Part shown: in pieces, positions 29,407-47,941 of the stretch
How the letters are laid out: each line of letters begins with the position of its first letter
How positions within the stretch are numbered: the stretch's first letter is position 1
NCBI GenBank assembly: GCA_031292355.1
Contig: JARLHI010000075.1
Location: 124,001 to 188,000, forward strand
DNA from: Candidatus Obscuribacterales bacterium
GTDB taxonomy: Bacteria > Cyanobacteriota > Vampirovibrionia > Obscuribacterales > Obscuribacteraceae
DNA length: 64,000 bases
Reading direction: 5' to 3'
Program-made: the position numbers and the translations under genes
The notes under the pieces: model-generated
The model's database searches: none
What the model saw: only the letters and a program-made list of their open reading frames with translations
What the model was told of the DNA's origin: nothing

Positions 29407-29432
29407 CTCCTTGTATTCAAGGCGTGGCGGTA

Positions 29433-29912
29433 ATGGTTGCACTGAAAGAGCTTTTGGCTTTCGAAATTGATGGTTTTCAGTTTGGTGTCCACCTGGAGTC
29501 CGTGATAAAGGTGGTTCAGGCTGTGGAAATTCAGCCAGTTCCTGATCTTCCGGAAATGGTGCTCGGACTGATCAATGTTCATGGCAGCGTCACGCCGGTT
29601 CTCAACACTCGCAAGCGGCTGGGTTTGCCTGAAAAATCGCTTGAGCTGACCGATTTTTTCGTAATTGCCAGCAACAGTCATCAACAGATTGCCTTGATTG
29701 TCGACTCGATCCATGGCGTAATTAACTATTCCAGTGATCAGATAGTAAAAATCGATTCGGTGCAGTCAAATGATGCTTCAGTTACTGTGCTGCGCATTAT
29801 CGATGGGATGCTACTACTTTACGATTCAGATAAGTCGTTAAACGTTGACCAGTGGTCAACTCTCTCCGTCGTTTTGCAGAAGGCCAGTGACGCCAATGCC
29901 GCGGGAAATTGA
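29433..29912 (+). CDS. cheW: CheW-like coupling protein (WspB position)
   Basis: 159 residues covering a single CheW domain: LLAFEIDGFQFGVHLESV, PDLPEMVLGLINVHG and TPVLNTRKRLG. CheW proteins tether receptors to CheA. AAGG at 29419-29422 is ten bases before ATG 29433, which is better placed than the GTG at 29424. It opens a six-gene operon and its end overlaps cheR by 17 bases, indicating coupled translation. Confidence 0.88.
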   Translation: MVALKELLAFEIDGFQFGVHLESVIKVVQAVEIQPVPDLPEMVLGLINVHGSVTPVLNTRKRLGLPEKSLELTDFFVIASNSHQQIALIVDSIHGVINYSSDQIVKIDSVQSNDASVTVLRIIDGMLLLYDSDKSLNVDQWSTLSVVLQKASDANAAGN

Positions 29913-31392
29913 ACGTCCCCAACTACTGCGTTTGAACGATCACCTTGCCGAGCACATAGGCCTGACATTTCCATCGGATCGCCTCGCCGATTTTCAACAC
30001 AAAATCACTGCCGCTGCCAAAGAATTTGGCATGGAGCCCGTAGACTGCGTAAATTGGCTCTTGAGTTCGGCTCTTACCGAAGCTCAAATTCACACCCTTT
30101 CTTATCACCTTACAATCGGTGAAACCTATTTTTTCCGTGATCCGCGCACGTTCGAAATCCTGGAAGACGAAGTATTCAGCAAGCTCATTCGACAACGTCG
30201 CCACGGGCACAAGTATCTGCGGATTTGGAGCGCCGGTTGTTGCAGCGGCGAGGAACCATATTCTCTAGCCATGTTGTTGACCCGCATGTTGCCAGACATC
30301 GAATCATGGCGGATATCCATTCTTGGTACAGACATCAATGCTGCGTTTATAAAAAAAGCGCAGCGTGGAGTTTACGACCCATGGTCGTTCCGTATTACAT
30401 CACCGGAAATGAAATCACGCTTTTTTACACAGTCGCAAGGGAAGTATCAGATTGCCCCCGCCATCAAGCGAATGGTTCACTTCAAACAGATGAACCTGGT
30501 CGATCCTCGCGTTCCGGAAGGTCTCATTCTTTCCTCTTTTGATCTCATTTTTTGCCGCAACGTCCTCATGTACTTTCATCGCGACCAGGCCGTGCGCGTG
30601 TTAACAAGGTTGCACGAGGCCCTTACAGAATCTGGCATTCTGGTGTCAACGCCATTTGAACTGTCGGCTATTCCAGATCAATTGTTCGTACGTTTGCCTC
30701 ACAAAGGCGCGGTTTTGCTAGGGAAACGCAGCCATTCATGTCCTTCAGGACTCGAAGGGGTGTCCCCAAAACCGACCGCTTACGTCGCGCCTGTGCCGGA
30801 GCCCGAAACTGTGGCGAAAAGCAAAGCCAGGCCAAAACATGAACATATATCCGGGCACAAAGTTGACAATAAAGTTGAGACACCGATTGCTCAAGCAGAC
30901 ATTGCAACACAGGCCAGAACCTTGCTTGATGCCGAAAGATTCGATGAATGCATCTCTCTTCTGGCTCCAGTCTGTTCTAAAAATAAAACCGACGCCTCGC
31001 TGCCATACCTATTAGCGAAAACTTATGCCAATCGAGGGGCTTTTGCCGAGGCGCTCTTCTGGCTGGACCAGTCACTTGAAATAGACAAACTCAATCACCT
31101 GGCGTACTTCACCCGTGCCACTGTCTCGCAAGCTCAGGGCAACGTGCCGGAGGCGGTTAGGTCTCTCAAACAGGCGCTCTTTCTCGAACCAGAGTTCATC
31201 CTCGCCGAATTCCACTTAGCAAGTCTTCTTCTAGGACTTGGAAAATTACAGGAGTCGCGCAAGCGATTTCAGGGTGCATTGAGCTTGCTCTCACAATATA
31301 ATGGGAACGAACTCGTGCCCGAAGGTGAAGGGATGACGGCAGAGGTTCTGGGTCAGATAATCAAATCATTGCTCAAAGAGACGGCTAAATGA
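29896..31392 (+). CDS. cheR: CheR methyltransferase fused to TPRs (WspC-like)
   Basis: 498 residues. An N-terminal helical CheR domain is followed by a SAM-dependent methyltransferase domain with IWSAGCCSGEEPYSLAM and DLIFCRNVLMYF; the catalytic half ends at about residue 270. A Pro/Lys-rich linker leads to three or more TPR units (~330-480, for example GAFAEALFWLDQSLEID). The CheR-TPR fusion is the architecture of WspC and FrzF-type methyltransferases, which methylate receptor glutamates. ATG 29896 is chosen because the protein aligns from MPREIERPQ. Confidence 0.92.
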   Translation: MPREIERPQLLRLNDHLAEHIGLTFPSDRLADFQHKITAAAKEFGMEPVDCVNWLLSSALTEAQIHTLSYHLTIGETYFFRDPRTFEILEDEVFSKLIRQRRHGHKYLRIWSAGCCSGEEPYSLAMLLTRMLPDIESWRISILGTDINAAFIKKAQRGVYDPWSFRITSPEMKSRFFTQSQGKYQIAPAIKRMVHFKQMNLVDPRVPEGLILSSFDLIFCRNVLMYFHRDQAVRVLTRLHEALTESGILVSTPFELSAIPDQLFVRLPHKGAVLLGKRSHSCPSGLEGVSPKPTAYVAPVPEPETVAKSKARPKHEHISGHKVDNKVETPIAQADIATQARTLLDAERFDECISLLAPVCSKNKTDASLPYLLAKTYANRGAFAEALFWLDQSLEIDKLNHLAYFTRATVSQAQGNVPEAVRSLKQALFLEPEFILAEFHLASLLLGLGKLQESRKRFQGALSLLSQYNGNELVPEGEGMTAEVLGQIIKSLLKETAK

Positions 31393-31462
31393 TGACTTGC
31401 GCCAATCAAATAGCATCAATGCACCGCTCACGGTGCCAACTCATAAGACTGGTGACAAGAGC

Positions 31463-31996
31463 ATGACGAAAGCAGACGAGCTCGAAAAACGCAAAATTTT
31501 GCAGGAACGGGCTCGCTTGTTGGCGCGCCACGAAGATGAAGAAGTAACTGCCCCTGATGACGAGTTTTATGCTGTGCAATTTGTCGTTGCCGGTCAAAAT
31601 TATGCCTTCGATGGACCTCTAGTGCGCGAAGTTAGCCACTGCAAAAATTTGACTCGCATTCCCTGCACACCCCCATTCATAGCCGGCGTGGTGAATATTC
31701 GCAGCGAGATAATTCCTGTTCTGGATACACGCAAGTTTTTCCAGTTGGCCCCTGGCTGGCCGGACAATTCCAAACTGATCATCTTGCAAGTTGATGATAC
31801 TAAGCTCGGTATCCTTGTCGATGACGTTGTCGGAGTCTCTACTTTTTCTTTATCGAAACTGCAGCTGCCCATGACTAACATGACGGCGGAGCAAACGCGC
31901 TATGTTCGTGGCATCGCTGAAGGACCGGTGATTGTTATCGACGCTATGGCTCTAATCAATGATCCGACGATTGAAGTAAACGAAACAGTCGACTAA
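31463..31996 (+). CDS. cheW: Second CheW coupling protein (WspD position)
   Basis: A CheW domain (~35-170: FYAVQFVVAGQNYAF, IPCTPPFIAGVVNIRSEI, PVLDTRKFF) follows a charged helix (ELEKRKILQERARLLAR) that is common on Wsp/Pil-type CheW proteins. ATG 31463 has AAGAG just upstream; a TTG at 31397 would add 22 unlikely residues. The product is 177 residues. Confidence 0.88.
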   Translation: MTKADELEKRKILQERARLLARHEDEEVTAPDDEFYAVQFVVAGQNYAFDGPLVREVSHCKNLTRIPCTPPFIAGVVNIRSEIIPVLDTRKFFQLAPGWPDNSKLIILQVDDTKLGILVDDVVGVSTFSLSKLQLPMTNMTAEQTRYVRGIAEGPVIVIDAMALINDPTIEVNETVD

Positions 31997-32020
31997 TCGC
32001 TAATGGCAGGAATATAACCG

Positions 32021-34336
32021 GTGGCTGATCCAGATTCAGATTTCTTGAAAAAATTACGTCAAGCGTTCGCGTTTGAGGCCAAGGAGCAGCTGCAAATCAT
32101 TTCCAGCCATCTCCTGAAGCTTGAACAGCAACAAGACGAAAAAATTCGCAAAGAACTGATAGAAGTCATGTTCAGACAAGCCCACAACCTAAAAGGGTCA
32201 GCTCGGGCTGTGAACATGAACCGGATCGAATCAGTTTGTCAGTCACTCGAAGCAGTACTTTCCGAAATGAAAAAAGGAGAAGTACCGGCGCCTAAAAATT
32301 ATCTGGACACTTTGCTCGCTTGCGCCGATGTACTGGAACGTTTGCTAGCAGAAGAAGATAGCGACTCGGAGCAATTGGAGTCAACTATCACTAGAGTTAA
32401 GCATGAACTCGGTGCCTTCTTTCCTACCTCTGGCGCGCCGGTTTCTGCCTCTGCCAACGAGGATGTGCTCGTTACTGATACAGTTGTTGCTGCAGACACG
32501 TCCGACTCTTCAGGTTCAAGTAAAGCCCCCGCCACCAGTGAGAAAACTGCCACCATAGACAGTGTTCGTTTATCGGCCGCTAAGCTCGATGAATTGTTGC
32601 TGCAATCAGAAGAAATGCTTTCAATTAAAAGGGCGGCTATTCAGCATGCAGCTGACATCGGGTCTTTAGCGAACGCAGCTGAACTCTGGAAAAAGGCCTG
32701 GCACACCTTTGCACCGAATTTGCGGGCTTTGCGAACTGCTGCAAACCGCGATCTAACAGAGGCCGACTTGCTCAGTATTGGAGCACAGCTAAATAAGGCA
32801 GTCGCTTTTCTGGATTGGAATCAATATCAGGTAAATGCCGGAGTTGCTCGCCTGCTAAATCAGCGAAAACTTGTATCAGCAGACACTCACGCCATTGCAG
32901 CCGGGGTCGACTCCTTTCTGGAAAGTACAAAAAAACTTTTGCTCACACCCTGTTCTGCTCTATTTGAGGGTTTTCCAAGATTAGTGCGCGAGATGTCCAG
33001 AGATCTGGGCAAGGATGTAGATTTAAAGATGCTGGGCACAGATGTCGAACTGGACCGACGTGTGCTTACACGCATGCGTGACCCTCTTGTGCATTTAATC
33101 AGAAATAGCATAGATCATGGAATTGAACCACCTGACGTCAGACTGCAGAAGGGCAAGCCAACCAGAGCCACTATTACGATAGCCGTTAAACAGGATGAAT
33201 CAGGAAAGGTAGAAATAAACATTGCCGATGATGGTGCCGGGATTGATGTAAGCAAGGTCACAGCTGCAGCAGTCAAATCAGGAACTATCAATCAGGCAGA
33301 ATCCCAATCCATGACCAAAGAGGACAAGATTGGTCTTATTTTTCAATCAGCGCTAACCACAAGTCCAATTATTACCGAAATATCCGGGCATGGACTGGGT
33401 CTAGCAATCGTCAAGGAAAACGTAGCAAACCTGGGAGGCCGAATCGAGGTTGATACCAGTTTTGGTGTCGGCACTGCATTCAAGATTTTTCTACCAGTGG
33501 CTATTGCTACCTTTCAAGGCGTTCTTCTAAGTACTGGCGGCGCCACGGTTACCGTTCCCAAGGCGAATTTGCTGCGCGTATTGCGTCTTGACGCAAGCAA
33601 AATCAAAATGATCGAGGACAAGGACGCTTTTGACTTCAACGGTGCGCTGCATCCGTTGCTAAGATTGTTCGATTTGTTGGAAATGGAAAATAAAGCAAAA
33701 GAGTCGGACAACCCTGAGTTTTTGCTGGTGGCCGTGGTGCGAGCCGGTGATGAAATTCTTGGCCTGATTATTGACGATGTACTTGAAGAACAAGAGGTGA
33801 TCGTCAAAAAACTGGGTAAACCACTGAACAGGGTGCGCAACATCGCCGGTGTAACTATCCTTCGAACCGGTGCAGCCGTGCCCGTTTTAAATGTTTCTGA
33901 TTTGATGAAGTCTGCCAAACGGCAATCAGGCAAACGTGCAGGTGCCGCCGCTGAGTACCTTTCGCCGCGAAACAAAAAGCGTATTTTGGTGGTCGATGAC
34001 ACACTCACATCCAGGATGCTGGTGAAAAACATCATGGAAGCAGCCGGATATGAAGTAAAAACCGCAGTCGATGGACTGGAGGCTTTCTCAACACTGAATT
34101 CGGAACCATTTGATCTGGTACTTTGCGATGTCGAAATGCCACGCATGAATGGACTGGAGCTGACCAAAAAGGTCAGAGAGACTACCAAAATTGCCGATAT
34201 ACCTGTGGTCCTTTTGACTTCGCTCGCTTCTCGAGAGCACCGAGAAAAGGGCGTGCAAGCTGGTGCCACCGCTTACTTCACTAAAGGCAGTTTCGATCAG
34301 ACAAGCCTGCTCGACGTTATCAAACGACTGATCTAA
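32021..34336 (+). CDS. cheA: CheA-type hybrid histidine kinase with C-terminal receiver (WspE-like)
   Basis: 771 residues from a GTG. The P1 Hpt domain carries phosphorylatable His55 (RQAHNLKGSAR). A Ser/Thr-rich linker (~140-175) replaces a recognisable P2. A helical dimerisation region follows, then the HATPase with N box LIRNSIDHG, G1 box ADDGAGID and G2 GHGLGLAIVK, the P5 CheW-like domain (~500-630), and a receiver with Asp703 (LCDVEMPRMNG). CheA-REC fusions typify Wsp, Frz and Pil-Chp systems that control functions other than flagellar rotation. The fused receiver may act as phosphate sink or relay. Confidence 0.93.
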   Translation: MADPDSDFLKKLRQAFAFEAKEQLQIISSHLLKLEQQQDEKIRKELIEVMFRQAHNLKGSARAVNMNRIESVCQSLEAVLSEMKKGEVPAPKNYLDTLLACADVLERLLAEEDSDSEQLESTITRVKHELGAFFPTSGAPVSASANEDVLVTDTVVAADTSDSSGSSKAPATSEKTATIDSVRLSAAKLDELLLQSEEMLSIKRAAIQHAADIGSLANAAELWKKAWHTFAPNLRALRTAANRDLTEADLLSIGAQLNKAVAFLDWNQYQVNAGVARLLNQRKLVSADTHAIAAGVDSFLESTKKLLLTPCSALFEGFPRLVREMSRDLGKDVDLKMLGTDVELDRRVLTRMRDPLVHLIRNSIDHGIEPPDVRLQKGKPTRATITIAVKQDESGKVEINIADDGAGIDVSKVTAAAVKSGTINQAESQSMTKEDKIGLIFQSALTTSPIITEISGHGLGLAIVKENVANLGGRIEVDTSFGVGTAFKIFLPVAIATFQGVLLSTGGATVTVPKANLLRVLRLDASKIKMIEDKDAFDFNGALHPLLRLFDLLEMENKAKESDNPEFLLVAVVRAGDEILGLIIDDVLEEQEVIVKKLGKPLNRVRNIAGVTILRTGAAVPVLNVSDLMKSAKRQSGKRAGAAAEYLSPRNKKRILVVDDTLTSRMLVKNIMEAAGYEVKTAVDGLEAFSTLNSEPFDLVLCDVEMPRMNGLELTKKVRETTKIADIPVVLLTSLASREHREKGVQAGATAYFTKGSFDQTSLLDVIKRLI

Positions 34337-34358
34337 TTCGCACTCAGGTAAGTAAGCA

Positions 34359-35387
34359 ATGATAAAAGTATTGATCGTCGAAGACTCACTGACAGCCCAG
34401 GTATTGCTGCGACAAATTCTTAGCAGTGACGGCGCTATTCAGGTTTTGGGCACCGCTCGTAATGGCTTAGAAGCGCTCGAATTCATGCGAAATCATCATC
34501 CTGACGTGATCACCATGGATTTGCACATGCCCGTCATGGACGGGTTGGAAGCGACGCGCACGATCATGGAAACAAAACCAGTGCCCATTATTATTGTCAG
34601 CAATGACTGGGATAGTGCAAATAAGGCCGATGCCTTTGACTATCTAGAAGCCGGTGCAGTAGCTGCGCTCGAGAAGCCGCAAGCCATCGGCGATTCTTCC
34701 TACGATGAATTGAGAAAAGACTTGATTCAGACAGTAAAAATCATGTCTGAAATCAAAGTGGTGAGAAGATTTCCGGCACGGAAAAGGAAACGCGAACGCA
34801 GCAGCGCTGAATTGCAGGAGCTAAAAATCGTCGTCATTGGAGCATCAACCGGTGGTCCGCCAGTACTCAAAACCATTTTGAGTAGTTTAAGCGAGAATTT
34901 TCCTGTACCCATCTTGATCGTTCAACACATAGCCCATGGCTTTCTTTCCGGGCTTGGGGATTGGCTTGATGCGTCTTGTGCGTTACCTGTTGCTATCGCC
35001 AGACAAGGGCAGGCTGCTTTGCCAGGGCACGTTTATCTTGCTCCGGATGAATTTGAAATGGGTGTTTCTCGCTCATTGCGTATTCATTTGAGTCCGCAAA
35101 AAACGACTATTGGACCATGCCCTTCAGTTGCCTTTTTATTTAGGTCAGCATTAGTACACTTCGGTCCTCAGGCACTGGGCGTGCTGCTTAGCGGCATGGG
35201 CAAAGACGGTGCTGAAGAATTGGCATTGATGAAAAACAAAGGTTCCGTGACAATTGCTCAAAATGAGGAGAGCTGCGTGGTCTTTGGCATGCCTGGTGCG
35301 GCGGTAAAATTGCAAGGTGCAACTCACATTTTGCCACCAGAGAAAATTGGACCGCTGATCGAGCGCACTGTTTTATCAAGGTTGTAG
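34359..35387 (+). CDS. cheB: Receptor methylesterase / response regulator CheB (WspF-like)
   Basis: 342 residues. An N-terminal receiver with Asp54 (TMDLHMPVMDG) is joined by a basic linker (ARKRKRER) to the methylesterase domain. The catalytic triad is Ser163 (IGASTGGPP), His190 (VQHI) and Asp283 (GMGKDGAEE). Phosphorylation by CheA should activate removal of receptor methyl groups. It lies 22 bases after cheA. Confidence 0.94.
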   Translation: MIKVLIVEDSLTAQVLLRQILSSDGAIQVLGTARNGLEALEFMRNHHPDVITMDLHMPVMDGLEATRTIMETKPVPIIIVSNDWDSANKADAFDYLEAGAVAALEKPQAIGDSSYDELRKDLIQTVKIMSEIKVVRRFPARKRKRERSSAELQELKIVVIGASTGGPPVLKTILSSLSENFPVPILIVQHIAHGFLSGLGDWLDASCALPVAIARQGQAALPGHVYLAPDEFEMGVSRSLRIHLSPQKTTIGPCPSVAFLFRSALVHFGPQALGVLLSGMGKDGAEELALMKNKGSVTIAQNEESCVVFGMPGAAVKLQGATHILPPEKIGPLIERTVLSRL

Positions 35388-35414
35388 AGATTACCGAAAG
35401 AGGAAAGATAAGGC

Positions 35415-35933
35415 ATGAGTCTTGCACATATTTTGCTGGTTGAAGACACTCTGACTCAGGCTTTGATGATGGAGCATATTTTGCAGTCCCAAAACTTTCA
35501 GGTATCGATAGTTAAAGATGGTCTAAAAGCATTAACATTTCTGAGCGCACAAAAACCAGACTTGATCCTGAGTGACATCTCGATGCCTGAAGTGGATGGT
35601 TATGAGTTGTGCAGACGTGTCAAAGAGGATCCACAAACTCGGGCTATCCCATTTGTCTTGCTGTCGTCGTTCCATGATGCAGCAGAAATAGTCAAAGTAG
35701 TTAATTCCGGTGCTGACAGTTTTATGCTCAAGCGATTCGATCAACAATATGTGATTGAGAACTTGAAAAACGTTCTCGCCAACGGTGCGTTGGAGCATTC
35801 GAGCGATAATATTTCGCTGAAACACAATCAGGTTGATTACAGTATTTCAAGAGACCCGCAGCGACTAGCTTCGATGCTTTTAGCAGCTTTCAAAACAGTC
35901 GTACATCTCATTCCTTTACTAAAAGACGAGTGA
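35415..35933 (+). CDS. Receiver-only response regulator ending the Wsp-like operon
   Basis: 172 residues. The receiver (~3-122) has the acidic pair in VEDTLT, phosphoacceptor Asp54 (LSDISMPEVDG) and a Ser-Ser/Lys switch (LLSSF and MLKRF). The remaining ~45 residues are a helical tail (RLASMLLAAFKTVVHLIPLL) with no recognisable output domain. In canonical Wsp operons this position holds WspR, a diguanylate cyclase. The stop lies eight bases from the convergent hub gene. Confidence 0.88.
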   Translation: MSLAHILLVEDTLTQALMMEHILQSQNFQVSIVKDGLKALTFLSAQKPDLILSDISMPEVDGYELCRRVKEDPQTRAIPFVLLSSFHDAAEIVKVVNSGADSFMLKRFDQQYVIENLKNVLANGALEHSSDNISLKHNQVDYSISRDPQRLASMLLAAFKTVVHLIPLLKDE

Positions 35934-35941
35934 TCAGTCTC

Positions 35942-37846
35942 TTATTCCGGCGTGCTCTTAGCGTAATCTTTGAGTACCTGGCGTGTTCGCAAAAGCGAAT
36001 CACAAAGAGTTAAGTAAACAGCTCCAAGTGCTTTCCAAGACTGTTTTACAGCCAGCTCTTCAACAGTTCTTGCGAGCTTCTGTCCTTCACTATCCATTAT
36101 CGACGCGCAACACCCGGCTAGTTTATGCATCGACCGGCGTACCACTTCTGTCTCCTTACCAGTTATTGCACCGCCCATGGTATCGAGAATATCATTCGTA
36201 TCTTCCATGAAGGCATTTGCTAAAGCTAGAGTGGTAGGCTTTCCTATCTTTTGCTCTAATTTTTCCAGGCGTTTTTTCACGTCTGCAACAGAGGCAACTG
36301 CTGCCTTTTCCAATTCGATTTCGCCAGTGACGATTTCGCTCGGATTGGAATCGTTCGATGAGCCAGAGTCAGCCCAACCAGCATAAACTAGACTTTCTGA
36401 TTTCTTCGCAATTTCTTCAAAAGCTGACTCGAGCGAATCGACTTCGAAGTCAGCATCAAACCATTTATTGCGCAGTGCAGCCGACGCCACTGTTTCGCAA
36501 AGGCTCGCAAGCTTAGTGCAACCAAGGCTGGCCGCTGGTCCCTTGATGCAATGGGCATAATGGTGCGCTGCCCGCACGTCCCTTTCAGCTATTACGGCCT
36601 TCAAACAAGCAATCAAAACCGAGGTAGTCTTCAAGAAAGACGGCAGAATTTCCTGCAGTTCTTTCCGTCCATACATTTTTTCCAGAGATGGCAGATCAAA
36701 TTCGCGTGCCGCTGATTGTTCATCGTCATCTTTGGCTTGATCGGCTCGAGCGACGATTGGCTCACCCTTTAGCACCGCTTCCGCCACTTTAAACAACTTC
36801 GTTTGGTCGATACTTTTGGTGACATATTCATCCATGCCAGCCGCCAAACATTTTTCACGATCACCTTGGCGGTCATAAATTGTCATGGCAATAATCGGCA
36901 CTCGCCTGCTGTCGCCCTCGGCTTTGCGAATGGCTTTCGTGGCTTCGTAACCGTCCATCACGGGCATATCGCAATCCATCAGGATGAGCGAATATTTGTA
37001 TTTGGACGCAGCATCCACAGCGGCTTGACCATTGGTTGCCGAATGCACCGCGAAACCTAAATTGGTCAAATAAGAGCCAAGTAAAATATGGTGCACCTGC
37101 ACATCATCGACCACAAGCGCTAGCTTTTCTTCTGTGTTCCCGCCCTCAGCAGCCTGCAATACAATTTCTTCTGGCGAATCGACTATATCCCAGTTCTTTT
37201 GGCCCATTTTGCCGAGCAGCTCAGTAAGTTCTTCGTGAACATTAGTTGTATCGGTGAGTCTTTGCTCGAGCTGGCGGCGCACATCATGGATGTGACTTTC
37301 GGCGAGCACACCTTCTGTGGTATCAGCGAAAATTGCTATCGCGCAACGCACACGTCCGTCAGAATCTTTAACTGGCATGGCTTCGATTTGCAACCATAAG
37401 CCATCAGGAACGCCTGCGCGCTTGACGAAAATTTTCGTCTCTGACACTTCTAACCCTTCGGCTGCCCGCAGCCAGGGCAAATTGCGACCACAAGGAGTAG
37501 CCTTATCGGCCAAAAAGAACGTATCATCCACGTCTGCTTCAAAGCTAAGCAAATGCTCGCCAAGTATTTCTCTGGCACGGTCATTAGCTTCGGTAATATT
37601 CCCTTTTAAATTAGTAGCGATGATGCCCAAAGAATGATATTCAGGCGCGGCATTCAGGGTCTGAAAAATCTCTGCAGTAGCAATTTGCTCGTTTTCACGC
37701 TGTCGCAAAAGCGCGCGCAACATCTGGCTTGCACCAGCAAGGGATGGATTTCTGGCTCCAGTGTCTTGAGTTAACGCTAGTGTCTCGTTGATTAGGTCCA
37801 GCTTTTCTTTTAGCTGCCCGACGTAAGCTTTCCAAACCTTTGTCAT
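35942..37846 (-). CDS. Kinase-less phosphorelay protein: PAS-REC-Hpt-Hpt
   Basis: 634 residues. A coiled N-terminus (1-60) precedes a PAS domain (~62-180: LGIIATNLKGNITEANDRAR), a coiled linker, a receiver with Asp291 (LMDCDMPVMDG), Hpt1 with His432 (HYAHCIKGPAASLG) and Hpt2 with His574 (SMHKLAGCCASI). No HisKA or HATPase motif (no SHELRTP-like H box, no GxGxG) occurs anywhere. It has a receiver plus two phosphotransfer domains but cannot autophosphorylate. It is last in the unit with the receptors and faces the Wsp-like operon. The Hpt residues next to His574 (KLAGC) deviate from the usual KG-S/A, so activity there is less certain. Confidence 0.85.
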   Translation of the reverse strand: MTKVWKAYVGQLKEKLDLINETLALTQDTGARNPSLAGASQMLRALLRQRENEQIATAEIFQTLNAAPEYHSLGIIATNLKGNITEANDRAREILGEHLLSFEADVDDTFFLADKATPCGRNLPWLRAAEGLEVSETKIFVKRAGVPDGLWLQIEAMPVKDSDGRVRCAIAIFADTTEGVLAESHIHDVRRQLEQRLTDTTNVHEELTELLGKMGQKNWDIVDSPEEIVLQAAEGGNTEEKLALVVDDVQVHHILLGSYLTNLGFAVHSATNGQAAVDAASKYKYSLILMDCDMPVMDGYEATKAIRKAEGDSRRVPIIAMTIYDRQGDREKCLAAGMDEYVTKSIDQTKLFKVAEAVLKGEPIVARADQAKDDDEQSAAREFDLPSLEKMYGRKELQEILPSFLKTTSVLIACLKAVIAERDVRAAHHYAHCIKGPAASLGCTKLASLCETVASAALRNKWFDADFEVDSLESAFEEIAKKSESLVYAGWADSGSSNDSNPSEIVTGEIELEKAAVASVADVKKRLEKLEQKIGKPTTLALANAFMEDTNDILDTMGGAITGKETEVVRRSMHKLAGCCASIMDSEGQKLARTVEELAVKQSWKALGAVYLTLCDSLLRTRQVLKDYAKSTPE

Positions 37847-37897
37847 GCCACCCTCACTGCCCTCCTCTGCATCTTACCTCTCATACCATTTTAACGG

Positions 37898-39676
37898 CTA
37901 GAGCAAGTGAATAAAATCAACCCGGTTCTCAGCTCTAGCGCGAGCGGCCGATTGAGCATCCCAGACATCATATCGATCAACCAGAGTTTTCAATTTGATC
38001 CCAATTTCATTTAAGCGATGCGCGGCAGTTTCTACGTGCCGTATAGCCTGCAAGTGCTCACTCGAGGCTTCCTTTATGCCAGACATCGCGTGCGCTACCT
38101 GGTCCACACCTGCCAGCTGCTGGTTGTTTGAGACAGCAATCTGTTTGGCTGCGAGCGCTGATTCCTGCACACTTGCGGCAAGAACCGCAATTGACCGCCC
38201 GGCCTGTTGCGATTGGTTGATTGCCGAGTCGACGGCTTTGCCACCAAGCTCTGTAGCCATGGCTGCTGCATTGGTCGCTTGCTGCATCTCTGTCAGCATA
38301 TGTCTGACTTCGGCGGTCGACTGTTTCGACTGCTGTGCCAAATTTTTCACTTCCTGCGCCACCACCCCAAAGCCCTTGCCAAATTCTCCGGCGGCGGCTG
38401 CTTCAATTGAGGCATTAACCGCCAACAAATTTGACTGCTTAGCTAAATCATCCACAGTGGTGATAATTTCAGAAATAGATTGGCTCTTTTCACTCAATCT
38501 GATCATAGCTTCGGCGATCAAATCCATTTGTTCGCGAATGCGCTTCATCCCTTCGATTACGTCTTCGGTTGCTTTACGACCGTCTTGTGTAACCTGGGCA
38601 GTCTTTTGAGCAGTTTCTGCAACTTGTTTCGCTTTCTGATTGGCGATCATTGAAGTCTGGCGAACTTCTTCTACCGTTGTCGTCGTCTGCATGGCGGCCG
38701 CTGCAGTCTCGGAAGCGCCTGCTGCAAACTGATTGACAGAGACTAGAATATCGCCGACAGCTGTATTCACAACCAGGACCGATTCCTTAAACTCAGCGGT
38801 AACCCGGGCGGTATTGCCTACCATTTGCTCGAAGGCCGCAGCCAAAGCATCCTGCTGTGAACGCGGTTTGAGAAAGACGGTCAGGTCGCCGTCGGCCACC
38901 TTTGAAGCGATGCTCACAGTATCGCGCCACGATTGAGCCATCGCTTGAAAGGACTTTGCAAGGGCCCCTACTTCGTCATTTCGGTCCATTTGCGGCAATG
39001 ATATTTCTAATTCACCTAATGCCAAACGATTTGCAGCTCGCGTTATTGCGCCGATTGGAGTGGCAATCAATCGGTGCAACAATAGACTCATGCTAATAGC
39101 TATAAATACGGCTACAGCCCCTAGCGCCGAAAGAATCACAACAGCTAGCTGTGTCCTTCCTTTAGCAATGGAGCTGGCATGATCGGCAAGTTCGTTGGTG
39201 CAGCGGGCGATACGTTCGAATCGCTGCCCTTGCATCTCCAAAGACAGCGTTCTTGCTTTCTCCATCTGATGGGCCCTGATTAAGGGAATTTGTTCGCGGT
39301 CGCGAGTATCGCAATACTGATGGAGCGTTGTCTCGAGATCATTGATCAGACCGGAAGCCATTGCATCCTGGGCCAGACGGTCCTTCAAGCGTTGTAACGC
39401 GGCATAAGTCGCCGACGTGTTTTTTTCCGCTTCGCCCAAATCATCGTCGAGCGCTATCATTTGGATATTGGTGTTGAGCAATATGGTCATCAAAGACAGG
39501 CGCATTTTATCTGCATCTATACGCAACTGTCTGGCTTCCAAAGCAATATTTAAATCATTAGTGACTTGCTCGATAGTATTTAGAGCACAGGCGATCACAA
39601 TTCCCAGGCACACGATGATTACTGTAAAACATGAAAACAGCTTCCATCCGATTGTGAGATTAGCAAACCACTTCAT
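37898..39676 (-). CDS. Methyl-accepting chemotaxis protein (4HB-type sensor)
   Basis: 592 residues. The first membrane helix (~10-29) and second (~177-203) flank an extracytoplasmic helical bundle of about 145 residues resembling 4HB_MCP domains. A HAMP domain and a long cytoplasmic coiled coil follow, with the signalling tip around SNLLAVNASIEAAAAGE and GFGVVAQEVKNLA. It would cluster with CheW and CheA and be modified by CheR/CheB. The neighbours are another receptor upstream and the phosphorelay hub downstream, with about 50-base gaps, consistent with one operon. Confidence 0.93.
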   Translation of the reverse strand: MKWFANLTIGWKLFSCFTVIIVCLGIVIACALNTIEQVTNDLNIALEARQLRIDADKMRLSLMTILLNTNIQMIALDDDLGEAEKNTSATYAALQRLKDRLAQDAMASGLINDLETTLHQYCDTRDREQIPLIRAHQMEKARTLSLEMQGQRFERIARCTNELADHASSIAKGRTQLAVVILSALGAVAVFIAISMSLLLHRLIATPIGAITRAANRLALGELEISLPQMDRNDEVGALAKSFQAMAQSWRDTVSIASKVADGDLTVFLKPRSQQDALAAAFEQMVGNTARVTAEFKESVLVVNTAVGDILVSVNQFAAGASETAAAAMQTTTTVEEVRQTSMIANQKAKQVAETAQKTAQVTQDGRKATEDVIEGMKRIREQMDLIAEAMIRLSEKSQSISEIITTVDDLAKQSNLLAVNASIEAAAAGEFGKGFGVVAQEVKNLAQQSKQSTAEVRHMLTEMQQATNAAAMATELGGKAVDSAINQSQQAGRSIAVLAASVQESALAAKQIAVSNNQQLAGVDQVAHAMSGIKEASSEHLQAIRHVETAAHRLNEIGIKLKTLVDRYDVWDAQSAARARAENRVDFIHLL

Positions 39677-39726
39677 GCCACCACCCAGGTCTAATTCAAA
39701 CCAATAAAATAAAACAAGGTCTCAAA

Positions 39727-41418
39727 TCACCGTAAGCGGTATCGGCCGACAATACTGCTGAGACTATTGGCTAGCCCGCTCAGGTTCTGAGCCGTGTCTC
39801 TTTGTTGAGCCGCACCAGTTACAGATTCATTAGCGGCCTCCGAGATGCTGCGCATACCGAGAGCCACCTGTTCTATGCCGACCACTTGCTGATTCGTCGC
39901 GGCTGCGATTGATTTAGCGGCGTTGGATGATTCCTCGATCACTCCATAGAGCTGATTGAAATTGGTGCCAATCTGATGCACCTGATTAACTCCTAATTCA
40001 ACTCTCTTTTTGCCCTCTTCGGTAACGACCACTGTGGAAGCAGTAGCCTTCTGAATTTCACCAAGAATGCCATTCACTTGAGCAGTAGCTCGCTTCGACT
40101 GACTGGCCAAATTCTTCACTTCCGAAGCAACAACACCGAATCCTCGACTTGCTTGTCCAGCTTTGGCTGCTTCAATTGCGGCGTTGACTGCTAGCAAATT
40201 TGACTGATCGGCAATATCATTGACTGAGGCTGTTATCTCACCGATCTGTATTGTTTTTTCGCGCAACTCAGCGATGTTGTCGGCAATTTCCTGAACTTGA
40301 TCTTTAATTTTCACCATTGCCGATACCGACTCACGAAGCGCATCTTGTCCAGCTTTGGAGACATCGAGAGAATGGTCAGCAATGTCCACAACCGATTTAG
40401 CCTTTTCACTAGCCTGTTGCACGATGGTGCGGATTTCTTCAAGAGTTTGCAATGACTGGCGAATGGATGTGGCTTGTTCAGAGATAGACGCGCTCTGTTG
40501 AGACGAAGTTGTGGCTAATTCAGTAGCGGCAGTGCTTAGAGCTTGTGCGCCCACAGACAATTCCTGAATAATGCCATGCAAACTTTCCACCATTTTTTTG
40601 AAGGCATTGCCAAAGACATCTCCATCGGAGCGCGCTTCAACTTTGACGCTTAAATCGCCTTTAGCAATAGAGTCGGCAACCTGGGCCATTTCGCGCAGAT
40701 ACGCCACCATGTTGTTCATTGATTGCAGTAACTGCCCAATTTCGTCGGTGCGGGTGACCTCAACCGTTTCATCCAGGTCTCCGCGAGATACTCTAGTGGC
40801 AAGACTGACAACGTCGGCAATCGGGCGAATAATTGTCTTATTAATGCGTGCAACGTAGATTGTTATTCCAATTAGTAATGAAAGCAACCCGATCGTGGCA
40901 ATTTGCAATTCTGCCTGCAAAATAGTCGACTGCAGTCTTTGACTAGAAATACCCACACGCAAGATTCCCACTTGCCCTGCTGTTGTGCCAATGGGCATGA
41001 CCATCTCAACGACGCCTGGTATAGGTGACTCGCGGCGCATGAATTCTGTGGCAGTAAGGGCCTGCTTTTCGAAATCGGTTTTGTTCAAACGCTTGTTCTT
41101 GTCTGCAGGATCGGTCGTGGCTAGTGCACGACCATCAGACGATAGTACGGCGGCATAACACAAATCTTGATCAGACTTTTCAGCGGCATCGATAGTCTGT
41201 TGCAGATGGTCGTATTCACCCATCGACAAAGGATCAGCAAGCACCGTTGCCAGATTTCTGGTAAGGATTTGAGACTTTTCATCGAGCGATTGTTTAAGCG
41301 AATTACTCATCGCCCAGCAAGAACTAATACCCAGAAGCAAAGTGCTGATTATTGAAATTACTACAAATGGGCTGATAAGTTGAGCCGCTAATCCAAGTCG
41401 AGAACGTCTATTTGGCAC
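39727..41418 (-). CDS. Methyl-accepting chemotaxis protein (Cache-like sensor)
   Basis: 563 residues. Membrane helices are at about 10-36 and 173-193. The extracytoplasmic region (~38-170: LATVLADPLSMGEYD, LCYAAVLSSDGRALATT and VVEMVMPIG) resembles a single-Cache domain that binds small ligands. HAMP and the conserved tip follow (SNLLAVNAAIEAAKAGQ, GFGVVASEVKNLA). It starts 17 bases after the upstream binding-protein gene, so co-expression with that protein is nearly certain. Confidence 0.93.
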   Translation of the reverse strand: MPNRRSRLGLAAQLISPFVVISIISTLLLGISSCWAMSNSLKQSLDEKSQILTRNLATVLADPLSMGEYDHLQQTIDAAEKSDQDLCYAAVLSSDGRALATTDPADKNKRLNKTDFEKQALTATEFMRRESPIPGVVEMVMPIGTTAGQVGILRVGISSQRLQSTILQAELQIATIGLLSLLIGITIYVARINKTIIRPIADVVSLATRVSRGDLDETVEVTRTDEIGQLLQSMNNMVAYLREMAQVADSIAKGDLSVKVEARSDGDVFGNAFKKMVESLHGIIQELSVGAQALSTAATELATTSSQQSASISEQATSIRQSLQTLEEIRTIVQQASEKAKSVVDIADHSLDVSKAGQDALRESVSAMVKIKDQVQEIADNIAELREKTIQIGEITASVNDIADQSNLLAVNAAIEAAKAGQASRGFGVVASEVKNLASQSKRATAQVNGILGEIQKATASTVVVTEEGKKRVELGVNQVHQIGTNFNQLYGVIEESSNAAKSIAAATNQQVVGIEQVALGMRSISEAANESVTGAAQQRDTAQNLSGLANSLSSIVGRYRLR

Positions 41419-41435
41419 ATAGCCTCCTCACTTAC

Positions 41436-42710
41436 CTAATGCGTCTCCAGTTGCTTCCAGTCATCAAAAGTGACGGGCTGTCCATCCTTGACTCTCGTGT
41501 AGTATACAGAATCAAAACCCTTGTGACGCTGCGGACCATAGTTCAATTTTAGATTAGGACCAAGACCGATATCTTTGTTATGCATAGATTCAATTGCAGA
41601 TATGAATTTCGACCTGGTCAAATCTGCTCCAGCTAACTTCAAGCCTTCGCAGACAACTAATGCATCTACGAAACCTTCGAGGCTAACGAAATTTGGCTTC
41701 TGAGAGGGAAAATACTGTTTCAACAATTTCTTATAAAGTACTACAGTCGGCAAATCATCACGATTGTAGGGTGGCACCACCTGGGTAATCACAGTGCCAT
41801 CTGCGTCTTTGCCGGCCTGTGCGATAAAAGCCTCCGTGCCAACGAAAGAGACTGTCGAAAAGTGCGGATGCCAACCTGCTGCATGGCTCTTCTTGACGAT
41901 TTCAGCAACCGGTTTGTAAGTACCAGCTAAAATAACGGCCTCCGGTGCTGAAGCATTCACTTGTTTAATGGCATCGCCTACATCTATGGTGTTACGTGGA
42001 AAAGAACCAAGTATGGTTAAAGTTTCACCATGATGCTCCAGAGCTTTTCTCACGCCGGCCAAAACTGCTGCACCAAAGGCATCATCTTGATAAATGACAC
42101 CAAATTTTCGAATACCTAAATCCTTCCAAAGATGATCGACCTGTTCTCGCGTTTCGTCGGCATATGATGCTCTAACGCTAATTACGTGAGGTTTAAATGG
42201 CTCATGCAAAAGTGCCGCCCCGGTAAACAGACCGACCAGCGGCACTTTGTTCGCCTCGGCCATCGGCACATATTTAGCCGCCGTTGGGGTGCCAACAAAA
42301 AAAGCTGCAGCAAAAATATTTTTCTGAAGCAAATGATTGAAACAGTCAATTGCTTTAGCGGGTTCGTATCCGTCATTGAACGTAATCAAATTGACTTTGC
42401 GTCCGTTCACTCCACCTGCATCATTTATATAATTTAGATATGCCTTCGCCCCCAAAACAGTTTGTTTCCCCAGTTCGCCAGCTGGACCATCGAGGGCACT
42501 GCAGGAGCCTATCAATATTTCTTTGTCTGTGATTCCATCGCGTTCATGCGAGCGCTCGGCGGTAGCAGTTGCCGCCGTACCGGCTCCTTCTTCGCTTGAT
42601 GGCATGCGCCCTTTGGCAAGCCTTGGTTGCTCGCTGCAAGCCTGAAGCATCAGAGTCATGACAATTGTCGAAGTAAAAAGTTTGAAGTAGATTTTCACAG
42701 TTCTATCCAT
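41436..42710 (-). CDS. Periplasmic ligand-binding lipoprotein, LivK/branched-chain amino-acid type
   Basis: 424 residues with a lipobox LQAC giving a lipid-anchored Cys near residue 25. The mature part is a type I periplasmic binding protein (GITDKEILIGSCSALDGPAG, VNGRKVNLITFNDGY, VPLVGLFTGA, FGVIYQDDAFGAAVLAGV). Such proteins normally deliver amino acids, amides or urea to ABC permeases. Here no permease or ATPase is adjacent, and the next gene on the transcript is a chemoreceptor, suggesting a sensory role. It is clearly paralogous to the gene immediately upstream. Confidence 0.88.
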   Translation of the reverse strand: MDRTVKIYFKLFTSTIVMTLMLQACSEQPRLAKGRMPSSEEGAGTAATATAERSHERDGITDKEILIGSCSALDGPAGELGKQTVLGAKAYLNYINDAGGVNGRKVNLITFNDGYEPAKAIDCFNHLLQKNIFAAAFFVGTPTAAKYVPMAEANKVPLVGLFTGAALLHEPFKPHVISVRASYADETREQVDHLWKDLGIRKFGVIYQDDAFGAAVLAGVRKALEHHGETLTILGSFPRNTIDVGDAIKQVNASAPEAVILAGTYKPVAEIVKKSHAAGWHPHFSTVSFVGTEAFIAQAGKDADGTVITQVVPPYNRDDLPTVVLYKKLLKQYFPSQKPNFVSLEGFVDALVVCEGLKLAGADLTRSKFISAIESMHNKDIGLGPNLKLNYGPQRHKGFDSVYYTRVKDGQPVTFDDWKQLETH

Positions 42711-42968: not shown

Positions 42969-44228
42969 CTATTTCTTCGCGGGCAACGCGAGCTGTCCCT
43001 TCCAATCCTTAAGCACAACGGGCAGGGCGTTGTGCACAATGGTATAGCAAACGTGATCGAATCCTTTGTGATCCGCGGGACCATAATTAAGCTTGAACTC
43101 TGCACCAAGCCCAATGTCCTTATTGTGGAACGATTCAATCGCTTTGATGAAATTAGAGCGCGTCAGGTTGCGACCAGCTTCTTGTAGACCATTGCAAACA
43201 ACCAGAGCATCCACAAATCCTTCGAACTGTGCAAAGGTCGGTTTCTGACCTGGTGTCGCGGTTTCTAGCAATTTTCGATAGAGGGCAACAGTCGGTAGCT
43301 GAATTTCATCATATGGTGGCACGACCTGAGTAATAACGGTGCCTTCTGCATCTTTACCAGCGAGCTTGATAAATGCCTCAGCTGGGAGAAAGGACACAGA
43401 GCTGAATAACGGATGCCAGCCACTTTCATGACACTGTTTAATAATTTTGACAATGGGAGGCGCGGTGCCATCAAATACAACTACTTCTGGATGATTTGGC
43501 TTGACCAAGTTAATTGCATCGTTAACCTCCAGGCTGCCACGCTCAAATGAACCTTGTCCCACAATTTCAGAACCATGGTCTTTCAAAGCGCGCTTCACAC
43601 CTTCGAGTGTAGCCGCTCCGCAGGCATCATTTTGGTAGATCACTGCAAACTTCCGGAATCCAACATCCCACAAATGATTGACCTGGGCAAGCGCCTCGTC
43701 GGAATAGGAAGCTCTAACGCCGATCACATTGTGGCGAAAAGGTTCGTAAATCGCGTCCCAACCGGTATAGAAACCTACAATTGGAAAATTATGTGTCGTC
43801 GCCAATCGCACATATTTTGTCGCCGGCGGTGCTCCGACAAAACATGCACCGGCAAACACTTTTTCTGCCTGCAGGCGCTCAAAACACTGCACCGCTTTGT
43901 CAGGATCGTAGCTATCATCGTGTGATAACAATTTGATTTGGCGACCGTTAATACCGCCCTTCGAATTTACATAATTAAAGTAAAGCATTGCACCGCTGAC
44001 AACTTGCTTGCCAACGACAGCCACCGGACCTTCCAGTGATGCGCATGAACCGAGCAGAATTTCTTTGTCTGTGATGCCAACTTTTTCGTCGACTTGGTTG
44101 GCAGCAGGTGGAGTCGGCTCAGCACTTAGTACTTGTGGCACCAATGTACCCGATGCAGATAGAACAAATGCAGCTCCAAGAATCACAACTTTCCAGTAGT
44201 GCATCTCTTGGAGCTTCACTTTGCGCAT
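42969..44228 (-). CDS. Periplasmic ligand-binding protein, LivK type (paralogue)
   Basis: 419 residues, preceded by AGAGGGA about seven bases from the ATG. A signal peptide (VVILGAAFVLSASGTLVPQVLSA) without a lipobox indicates a soluble periplasmic form, unlike its lipoprotein neighbour. The fold motifs are the same: GITDKEILLGSCASLEGPVA, GINGRQIKLLSHDDSYD, FAVIYQNDACGAATLEGV. The two share long near-identical stretches (for example GTVITQVVPPY), indicating duplication. A 258-base gap precedes the paralogue, so it may have its own promoter. No transporter genes are nearby. Confidence 0.88.
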   Translation of the reverse strand: MRKVKLQEMHYWKVVILGAAFVLSASGTLVPQVLSAEPTPPAANQVDEKVGITDKEILLGSCASLEGPVAVVGKQVVSGAMLYFNYVNSKGGINGRQIKLLSHDDSYDPDKAVQCFERLQAEKVFAGACFVGAPPATKYVRLATTHNFPIVGFYTGWDAIYEPFRHNVIGVRASYSDEALAQVNHLWDVGFRKFAVIYQNDACGAATLEGVKRALKDHGSEIVGQGSFERGSLEVNDAINLVKPNHPEVVVFDGTAPPIVKIIKQCHESGWHPLFSSVSFLPAEAFIKLAGKDAEGTVITQVVPPYDEIQLPTVALYRKLLETATPGQKPTFAQFEGFVDALVVCNGLQEAGRNLTRSNFIKAIESFHNKDIGLGAEFKLNYGPADHKGFDHVCYTIVHNALPVVLKDWKGQLALPAKK

Positions 44229-44330: not shown

Positions 44331-46496
44331 TCAACCTGCACTATCCGATTTGACAAATGCAGGCAGAGACTCTGGTGACTTAGCTGACAGCCATTTATTC
44401 AAGATTTTTGAGAGTCTCTCAAGCGAAGTGGGTTTGCTCAGATAATCACTCATCCCTGATGCTAGACAACGCTCGCGGTCGCCTTCCATAGCATGCGCGG
44501 TCAACCCGATGATCGGTATATGCTTGCCTGTTTTTAGCTCCAAATTACGAATCTCCTGAGTGGCCTCAAAACCATCCATCTCAGGCATTTGGCAATCCAT
44601 AAAAACGAGAGCGTAATTGTTGCGACAAACTTCCTCTACGGCCTCTAAACCATTTGAGACAGTAACAGTGCGCATTCCCAGTTTGCGCAATTGTGCCATT
44701 GCCACTTTTTGATTGACGAGATTATCTTCAGCGAGCAAAATTTTCATTGACTGCATAGCCACATCAATGTCGACACCAGCCTCTTCATCAGCTGTCAGTA
44801 AGGTCGGAGCCACTCCATCTTTACTCGAGACTTTTTCTGAGACAAGACTTGCTATTAGGTTGAATAAGCGCGATTGCTGAACAGGCTTAGTCAAATAACC
44901 ATCAAACCCTTGAGTTGTAGCGTTTTCAGATTGCCCGGCAAGATCGTATCCTGTACACAAAACAAATTTTGTCTGCGCACATGCTGGCATTCGTCTGGCA
45001 TCTTCAAGAAATTCAAAACCATCTTGTTCGGGCATTTTCAAATCGGTTATTACCAGATCAAATGGCGAATTGGCTGCAGCTGCTTGCTCCAATAAAACAA
45101 ACGCCTGTTCTGGTCTTTCAACACAAATACATTCCATTCCCCAGGACGAAATATAGGCATTGAAAATCGCTCGCGCACTATCTTGATCGTCGACGACAAG
45201 AACTTTGGTATTTTCGAAACCAGTTTTATCAAATGATATTTTTGATGTAGGCTGACCAATTTGCAAAGGCACTTCAAACCAGAAAGTCGAGCCTTCACCC
45301 GGCACACTATTGACACCAATTTGACCGCCCATCATTTCGACCAATCGTTTCGAGATTGAAAGACCAAGACCGGTGCCACCAAATTTACGGGTAGTCGAGC
45401 CGTCAGCCTGAGAGAACGGTCGAAAGAGTCGAATTTTAGCTTCTTCAGTCAAACCAATGCCTGTATCGCTGACACTGAATTTGACATTGATCTGATTTGT
45501 AGAATCGCTGGACGCCACAGAAGCGACGCGAATTATCACTTCACCGGACTCGGTAAACTTCAATGCATTACCGACAAGATTTAGTAGAACCTGACGTAAA
45601 CGGCCTGGGTCGCCATTGAGAAATGGTGGCACTTGAGGTTCGATGAAAGTCATCACGCTCAGTTCTTTAGTTCTTGCTGTTTCGGCAAGCAACTCCGCCG
45701 TGCCTTCAACGAGCGGCACCACATGAAAATCGAGAGAGTCTAAATCAAGACGACCAGCTTCGATTTTGGATAAATCTAGAATATCATTAATAATAATCAG
45801 AAGTGCCTGAGCGGATTCTCTAATTATTTGAGCAAATTCTCGTTGCTCAGAAGACATGGGCGTATGCAACAAAAGTTCTGCCATACCGATGACACCATTA
45901 ATTGGTGTACGAATTTCGTGGCTCATGTTAGCAAGAAATTCAGTCTTCATCTGGTCAGCTTTTTCTAGTTGCAGACCCCGTTCTTCAAGCAATTGCCGCT
46001 CCATTTCTTTGCGCAGCAATTCTTCTTTGATATATTGCTTTTCTGCTTCCAGTCTTTCGCGTTCTTTTTCTGCAAGCAATTCGGTTTGTCGTCTGATTTC
46101 TCGCGTCTTTTTATATAACTCGACAAACACCTGCACTTTGGACTTCAAGACATCAGGAACAAATGGTTTAGTCAAGAAGTCGACCGCTCCCAGCGAGTAA
46201 GCAAAGGTAGCATCAGCATCTTCAGTGTACATAGCCGTCAAAAAGATAATAGGAGTATGCTTGGTGGCATCTCTCTTGCGCATAGTGGACGCAACCTCGT
46301 AGCCTGTCATATCAGGCATCTGAATGTCTAGAATCACAATGGCAAATTCGTTTTCCAGCATACGGATCAAAGCTTCACGCCCAGAGTGTGCCTTGACTAT
46401 GTTTTGACCAGTAGCGGTCAGAACGGCTTCAAGAGCCATTAAATTCTCAGACTGGTCGTCAACGAGAAGGATATTAACGGGAGGATCGTTGAGCAT
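44331..46496 (-). CDS. Hybrid sensor kinase REC-HK-REC-REC
   Basis: 721 residues with a perfect AGGAGG seven bases before the ATG, inside the end of cheB2 (23-base overlap). The N-terminal receiver has Asp57 ([11 protein letters not shown]). A charged coiled coil (130-185) leads to the H box with His193 ([11 protein letters not shown]), and an HATPase follows with [16 protein letters not shown] and [12 protein letters not shown] second receiver (~428-545, [11 protein letters not shown]) and a third (~590-710, [10 protein letters not shown]) complete it. There is no sensor or membrane domain, so input must come through the first receiver, presumably from the neighbouring poly-HAMP kinase. Confidence 0.93.
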
Positions 46497-47070
46497 TTTT
46501 GCCTCCTCTTATGTTACACATCTGTCGCAACACGCCAGCGATATTCTCCAGAGGCACCACGTGTGCATTATCCACAGCAGCTATTACGGCTTTCGGCAAA
46601 GTGACACTTTCAGCGGTAGCAGGATCCTGAACTATCAGCGCACCAGCTCGATTGACAATGCTTTTAGCTCCGGCCACACCGTCGATTGACGAACTTGTCA
46701 ATACTACACCAATCAAGTTACTGCCATAAGAAAGCGAAGCGGTGTCAAATGCCACATCAATGGAGGGTTGAGCATGCTGCACGGGCAGCTCGCAAGATAG
46801 ACTTATCGCTTTATTGTCTATTAACAAATGATAACTGGCTGGTGCGACGTACAAATTGCCTGCAGCTATTTTCATGCCATCATCAGCATCTTGCACCTTC
46901 ATATGAGTCGATCTTTGCAAAATCTGACTGAGCAAGTCTCCGGGACTCTTGTCTCGATGTTGCACGAGCACAATTGGTGTAACAAAATCGGTTCCGAGTC
47001 CATCCAAAATTATTTGCATGGCCTGAAAGCCACCGAACGAACACCCGAAAATAATCAATTCGTACTTCAT
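46474..47070 (-). CDS. cheB: Stand-alone CheB methylesterase (no receiver)
   Basis: 198 residues; its ATG overlaps the cheR stop in a TGATG junction, which decides the start over an in-frame codon nine bases upstream. The catalytic triad is Ser11 (FGCSFGG), His38 (VQHRD) and Asp130 (SSSIDGVAG). The loop before the Asp reads TSSSID rather than the usual TGMGxDG. Lacking a receiver, it cannot be switched on by CheA phosphorylation in the usual way. No chemoreceptor is encoded in the same unit. Confidence 0.88.
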
Positions 47071-47906
47071 CAGGCGCACCGCCTGTAGAGCTTTTCCGTT
47101 GCGTCCAGTTCTTCATAGGTGCGCCCGCGAGCCTCAGATGGCAACGTTTCTCTTTTGCCAAGCGCAAGAATTCCAAAAGGGCTCAGGCTCTGATGGACTA
47201 GCTTCAGCACATTTGCTCTCAAATCCTCGTTGAAGTAAATCAAAACATTGCGCATCAAAACTAGATTGAATTCATTGAAGGAACGATCTGTCACCAAATT
47301 GTGTTGGGCAAAAACAATATTTTTTCGCAGCGACTGATGCAATATCGCATGATCGAATTTAGCTGTGTAATATTCGGAAAAGGCTTGTTTGCCGCCGGCT
47401 TGAATGTAATTATCCGTATATTCTTTCATCTGTGAAAGGTGAAAAATGCCACTCTTTGCTTTGCGCAAAACAGATTCATTTAAATCAGTGGCGTAAATTC
47501 GACTCTTTTCGTAAATACCTTCTTCTTGCAACAAAATGGCCAGAGAATAGGCCTCTTCTCCGGTCGCGCAACCGGCATCCCAAATTCGGATAAGCGGATA
47601 TGTTTTGAGCAAAGGAATGACTTTCTCTCGCATCATGGCAAAGAACGCTGGATCTCTGAACATGGCCGTGACATTGACGGTCAAAGACAGCACAAAGCGA
47701 TCCATGATCGCTGGATCATGCATCACCGCTTCTTGCACCGACGATATCGTCGGCAAATTTTCGTTGTCGGCAAATCGTAGAATTCTTCGACGAATCGAAG
47801 CCAGAGCATAGTTGCGAAAATCATAACCGTAGCGCTTATAAATGCCCTGTAGAAGTAGTTCTACCTCTATAGCTTCGATTTCATCGATGTCATTTATCTT
47901 TGCCAT
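47070..47906 (-). CDS. cheR: CheR-type protein methyltransferase
   Basis: 278 residues. An N-terminal helical domain (YGYDFRNYALASIRRRILRF) is followed by the SAM-binding domain with IWDAGCATGEEAYSLAILL and FNLVLMRNVLIYF. It lacks the TPR extension of the CheR in the Wsp-like operon. It lies between the poly-HAMP kinase (35 bases upstream) and cheB2 (1-base overlap), so its substrate may belong to that kinase or to receptors encoded elsewhere. Confidence 0.92.
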   Translation of the reverse strand: MAKINDIDEIEAIEVELLLQGIYKRYGYDFRNYALASIRRRILRFADNENLPTISSVQEAVMHDPAIMDRFVLSLTVNVTAMFRDPAFFAMMREKVIPLLKTYPLIRIWDAGCATGEEAYSLAILLQEEGIYEKSRIYATDLNESVLRKAKSGIFHLSQMKEYTDNYIQAGGKQAFSEYYTAKFDHAILHQSLRKNIVFAQHNLVTDRSFNEFNLVLMRNVLIYFNEDLRANVLKLVHQSLSPFGILALGKRETLPSEARGRTYEELDATEKLYRRCA

Positions 47907-47941
47907 AACTATTGTTTTTTAGAGCGGATTGAAGAAAATTC

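Follow-up and report, generated by a model that had tools for sequence, protein, structure and literature searches.

A kinase-less PAS-REC-Hpt protein tied to the CheA type of a Wsp-like chemosensory operon in a Candidatus Obscuribacterales bacterium

The window analyzed here, a 64,000-nucleotide stretch from a Candidatus Obscuribacterales bacterium (assembly GCA_031292355.1, contig JARLHI010000075.1, positions 124,001 to 188,000 of the forward strand), carries a chemosensory operon of six co-directional genes on the plus strand (29424-35933), with intergenic gaps of -17 to +27 bp. The encoded proteins are CheW, CheR-TPR, CheW, CheA-REC, CheB and a receiver-only protein; Pfam assignments and the gaps confirmed that they form one operon, as a preliminary description of this DNA had stated. 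That description ended the system at 35933, which was wrong: a second gene set on the minus strand (35942-42710) converges on the operon from 8 bp away and encodes a PAS-REC-Hpt-Hpt protein, two HAMP-containing methyl-accepting chemotaxis proteins (MCPs) and a periplasmic binding protein. All three CheW domains in the whole 6.6 Mb genome were found in this operon (genome CheW scan) and the only two MCPs of the genome adjoined it, showing that the operon and the convergent set are the genome's sole, self-contained chemosensory system. What is new is a relay protein that has no kinase and accompanies this CheA type. We consider it probable (roughly 0.6), judging from gene content, conserved linkage and conserved residues, that CheA and the receiver-only protein work with it in a phosphorelay driven by CheA.

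The PAS-REC-Hpt-Hpt protein (634 aa; 35942-37846, minus strand), the proposed hub of the phosphorelay, matched PAS_4, REC and two Hpt stretches in Pfam; neither HisKA nor HATPase was found in it. Having no kinase domain, it must be supplied with phosphate by CheA or some other kinase. When 53 genomes of the order were searched with the PAS-containing N-terminal domain of the hub (cut-offs E <= 1e-38 for the kinase-less protein and E <= 1e-66 for this CheA type, clade A), the kinase-less PAS(-REC-Hpt) protein was present in 19 of the 20 genomes with this CheA type and in 1 of the 33 without it (Fisher p = 3e-12, uncorrected for shared ancestry). The 19 genomes that share both span nine genera. 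One exception (G048) had the CheA type with a weak hub match only; the other (G044) had the hub in an assembly that is 77% complete, with CheR present and CheA not found. In the sharing genomes the hub gene was about 5 kb or less from cheA, and in G012 the two were on separate contig ends.

Same-family loci with this CheA carried both the core and the receiver-only protein. Fourteen loci (L043-L048, L050, L124, L126, L128, L130, L131, L134 and L136) had these with an adjacent gene for a PAS-(variable linker)-REC-Hpt protein; the hub was still visible at the contig-end loci L047 and L048, and its first part at L043. The PAS-REC-Hpt proteins of the relatives were without HisKA and HATPase, and a separate Hpt gene often came next. 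This second Hpt is fused to the hub in the window, an indication that the two Hpts may act together. The kinase-less form being family-wide, the idea that the hub is a hybrid kinase that decayed in this window alone was dropped. The homologue at L044, taken for a hybrid kinase from its length, was rejected as one, as a low-complexity linker fills its middle part and kinase motifs are missing there.

Outside the family, the PAS domain of the hub gave no match at E <= 1e-38 in 289 genomes of the class and 244 of the phylum, and its closest relative there was a complete PAS histidine kinase. Within the family, a sister CheA clade (L049, L051, L052 and L135) occurred in genomes without the kinase-less hub. 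At the three of its four loci that could be read (L049, L051 and L052), a receiver fused to PAS-HisKA-HATPase followed cheB; the fourth was cut by its contig. One family thus shows an output switch between a kinase-less hub with one CheA clade and a receiver-PAS histidine kinase with its sister. It is conceivable, at somewhat less than even odds, that CheA replaced a lost sensor kinase, and that a family-confined kinase-less PAS-REC-Hpt relay inherited with the CheA type carries the phosphate of the array to a regulator; a single array would then drive a phosphorelay of several steps.

Conserved residues bear on how such a relay would run. The catalytic residues of CheA were in place (H55 in Hpt, D703 in REC), and those of the hub REC were kept in all copies. 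The histidine of the second Hpt was kept in every copy. At the first Hpt, the window and genus g14 have H, and most relatives N or Y; ten loci (L045-L047, L050, L128, L130-L132, L134 and L136) had a conserved pseudo-Hpt in which His is replaced by N or Y and K-G-P is kept. The phosphotransfer steps that we infer start at the two MCPs, which, perhaps informed by the periplasmic binding protein, would control CheA autophosphorylation. CheA would phosphorylate CheB, for adaptation, and its own REC, which in kinases of this kind is often a phosphate sink (PMC10782961). Its two other targets would be the receiver-only protein and the hub REC. From the hub REC the phosphate would move to the last Hpt (Hpt2) and on to a response regulator at the end of the chain, which could be the receiver-only protein or lie elsewhere in the genome. 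The nearest precedent that has been worked out is Che3 of R. centenum: CheA3 there acts on the N-terminal receiver of a kinase, CheS3, and CheS3 alone phosphorylates CheY3 (PMC3868531); the place of CheS3 would be taken here by a protein without a kinase.

Three observations weigh against this phosphorelay. The second Hpt of the hub in the window has HxLAG in place of HxLKG. The hub gene is on the opposite strand in a separate operon; in several relatives it follows cheB and the receiver gene in the same direction. Further, other hybrid kinases in the genome, two of them in the window alone, could phosphorylate the hub. In the AlphaFold2 model of the REC-Hpt-Hpt part, REC and Hpt1 were good and Hpt2 was poor, and the model was not used for Hpt2. 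We found nothing relevant in the literature on REC-Hpt proteins tied to chemosensory systems.

The receiver-only protein (172 aa; 35415-35933, plus strand) matched REC in Pfam, with no Pfam match beyond residue 116. Residues E10/D11, D54 and K106 were intact and were invariant in 16 homologues. It had been described as a REC protein with a 45-residue helical tail; the REC-only architecture was confirmed, and the tail was not purely helical. The AlphaFold2 model (mean predicted local distance difference test score, pLDDT, 89) gave REC at 1-123, a beta-hairpin at 131-146 and a helix at 148-170. The tail aligned with the linker between REC and PAS-HisKA-HATPase in L049 and L052 of the sister CheA clade. 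The best solved match, by profile and by fold, was 3gt7, a histidine kinase receiver (profile E = 1e-35); most CheYs gave about 1e-20, and PleD fell between at about 1e-25. Because of the tail match and the 3gt7 match, the stand-alone receiver looks like a CheS3-like receiver-PAS-kinase reduced to its receiver and linker, the kinase half being missing. The same two results led us to reject the protein as a truncated WspR.

This likeness would also suit a CheS3-type mechanism, with the tail of the receiver-only protein docking on an unlinked histidine kinase so as to switch it. The fusion of the same receiver-linker module to PAS-HisKA-HATPase in L049 and L052 speaks for such docking, as does the Che3 system of R. 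centenum, which acts through such a kinase (PMC3868531). However, no candidate kinase was found, and the receiver module travels with the kinase-less protein and not with a kinase, so we regard docking as unlikely. We give no better chance to a CheY/PilG-type role, in which the receiver-only protein would be a diffusible regulator of type IV pili (Tfp) and the PAS-REC-Hpt-Hpt protein a phosphate sink. No FliG_C was found in the genome (95% complete), showing that the array does not serve flagella and leaving other motility as a possible target, and several PilB/PilT-type ATPases were present. The receiver has its catalytic residues, and receiver domains in chemosensory proteins are often phosphate sinks (PMC10782961). 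However, the tail is a kinase-type linker and not that of a bare CheY, the locus is away from the pilus genes, and CheA fell outside the Tfp clade.

The preliminary description had matched the operon one for one to wspB-C-D-E-F and taken it for a Wsp-like surface-sensing system. The match in gene order and domain architectures was borne out by Pfam, and the operon has no diguanylate cyclase gene; membership in Wsp was not supported. A tree of 65 CheA core sequences, made by quick search without FrzE and R. centenum CheA3, used Wsp reference operons drawn from plasmid collections. One of these, from Mesorhizobium, reads MCP, CheW, CheR, CheW, CheA, CheB and a PleD-type regulator, and one from Azoarcus has a diguanylate cyclase as its last gene. 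WspEs of different genera had 48-56% identity to Mesorhizobium WspE, and other CheAs dropped cleanly to about 32% and below; the CheA in the window had about 28% identity to WspEs. All WspEs formed a single clade with support 100 and a long stem. The CheA of the window was in a 19-row clade (support 98) with 16 other same-family loci, a Niveispirillum plasmid locus and one wider-phylum genome. Its placement among the WspEs was rejected (approximately unbiased, AU, test, p = 3e-6), whereas a tree with the two whole clades as sisters was not (AU p = 0.32). The separate clade status of this CheA is firm as read from the tree, and only that, deep supports being moderate. The tree kept this CheA out of the Tfp clade as well as out of the WspE clade. 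The protein grouped with other CheAs of the alternative cellular function (ACF) type and away from the flagellar and Tfp references, with deep support only moderate, and the system is by these sequence relations of the ACF type in a broad sense. A CheA scan of the genome collection returned receiver-domain matches only.

Gene content pointed the same way. No WspA-type MCP stood as the first gene of the operon; the upstream gene, ending at 29370, was dienelactone-hydrolase-like by eye. Neither WspR (REC-GGDEF) nor WspH (REC-HK) was found in the cluster, where only the receiver at 35415-35933 occupied that place. Since WspR or WspH closes every one of the 794 Wsp clusters that have been published (PMC8552884), the system is by the published definition not Wsp, though its plan is similar. 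As a separate observation, WspE orthologues were found on Mesorhizobium and Novosphingobium plasmids (H61-H66, H69, H75 and H76; 51-100% identity to the Mesorhizobium query), in contrast with the report of Wsp as exclusive to beta- and gammaproteobacteria.

It had also been claimed that the output must differ from c-di-GMP (cyclic di-GMP) synthesis, which is unproven. The genome gave 29 GGDEF matches. Receiver-linked GGDEF proteins occurred outside the locus as REC-GGDEF (L137 and L142), Hpt-REC-REC-GGDEF (L138) and Hpt-3xREC-GGDEF (L007), and three of them, including the latter two, had an intact GG[DE]EF motif. L138 (G000:C6) and L007 (G000:C32) are cyclases with their own Hpt, and are possible relay end points. 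A Wsp-like system with its c-di-GMP output in trans, in which CheA would act on one of these unlinked proteins and the receiver-only protein would modulate, would draw on these intact motifs but is the most doubtful of the alternatives, because no receiver-linked GGDEF protein is linked to the system, the sole one as short and plainly built as WspR (L142, 305 aa) is without the GGDEF motif, and the conserved linked partner is a kinase-less relay and not a cyclase.

Receiver-only and kinase-type outputs are already known from R. centenum Che3 (PMC3868531) and WspH (PMC8552884). Wsp itself (WspA-F with WspR or WspH, in beta- and gammaproteobacteria) shares with this system the CheW, CheR-TPR, CheW, CheA-REC, CheB order, long-type MCPs and, where it has WspH, an output protein that is not a cyclase; unlike it, the system described here has a CheA outside the WspE clade and a kinase-less relay partner. 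Che3 (CheA3, CheS3 and CheY3) is likewise not for flagellar chemotaxis and resembles it in the CheA-REC core, two CheWs, a stand-alone receiver and a PAS-containing output protein. The stand-alone receiver at 35415-35933 is a putative counterpart of CheY3. CheS3, however, is a kinase (REC-REC-PAS-HK), whereas the protein here is PAS-REC-Hpt-Hpt; a Che3-type receiver-regulated histidine kinase was absent from the cluster in the window and present in L049, L051 and L052.

The ACF-type clusters of Azospirillum, Indioceanicola and Sinorhizobium (L066 and L068-L070) have the CheR-CheW-MCP-CheA-CheB core, that of Azospirillum with an extra CheW first and a non-cyclase output (a DNA-binding regulator plus a hybrid kinase). 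They differ in about 30% CheA identity and in other output proteins. A plasmid cluster of Niveispirillum cyanobacteriorum (L064) has a CheA of the same clade (full-length identity 34%) and the same core order, but neither a receiver-only gene nor a relay protein after cheB. It holds the closest named CheA; the plasmid is alphaproteobacterial, its host strain came from cyanobacterial aggregates, and horizontal transfer is possible. The Pil-Chp (Tfp) class also has a CheA with a C-terminal REC, but in a separate clade and with a different gene order.

The operon begins with CheW adaptor 1 (162 aa; 29424-29912; Pfam CheW E = 6e-22), whose place is kept in relatives, followed by the CheR methyltransferase with C-terminal TPRs (498 aa; 29896-31392; CheR E = 5e-51) and CheW adaptor 2 (199 aa; 31397-31996; E = 4e-27). 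CheA-REC (771 aa; 32021-34336), the only CheA of the genome, has Hpt, HATPase, CheW and REC and no P2 domain in Pfam, and is followed by CheB, with REC and methylesterase (342 aa; 34359-35387; E = 2e-55); all are on the plus strand. Beyond the hub, on the minus strand, are two transmembrane chemoreceptors with HAMP plus MCPsignal in Pfam: MCP1 (592 aa; 37898-39676), with transmembrane segments near 14 and 177, and MCP2 (563 aa; 39727-41418), with about 20 heptads between the hairpin tip and the C-terminus, which is 40H-like. A Peripla_BP_6 protein (41436-42710; E = 2e-57), a candidate ligand receptor, is encoded 17 bp upstream of MCP2, and a second (42969-44228; E = 2e-49), only tentatively part of the system, 258 bp beyond the first. 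Two Peripla_BP_6 genes directly upstream of the MCP genes suggest that the stimulus is a small-molecule ligand rather than surface contact. Surface sensing was not supported: a periplasmic binding protein is encoded in the same operon as the receptors, and nothing in the sequence indicated surface contact.

A second Che-like cluster was seen at 44331-54307 on the minus strand. It encodes a 2121-aa protein with 11-12 HAMP domains, GAF, HisKA-HATPase and three RECs, followed by CheR, a receiver-less CheB and a HisKA-HATPase-3xREC protein. Similar receivers occurred elsewhere in the genomes of the family in proteins of some 2100-2300 aa, apparently unlinked to cheA.

For most chemosensory systems that do not serve flagella the output is unknown, and the path of the phosphate has been traced in very few. 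Wsp-like gene order is common to separate lineages with different outputs, and a system should therefore not be named Wsp from its gene order alone. With one system, two receptors and one regularly linked partner unable to phosphorylate itself, the target of CheA is testable in this organism with few purified proteins.

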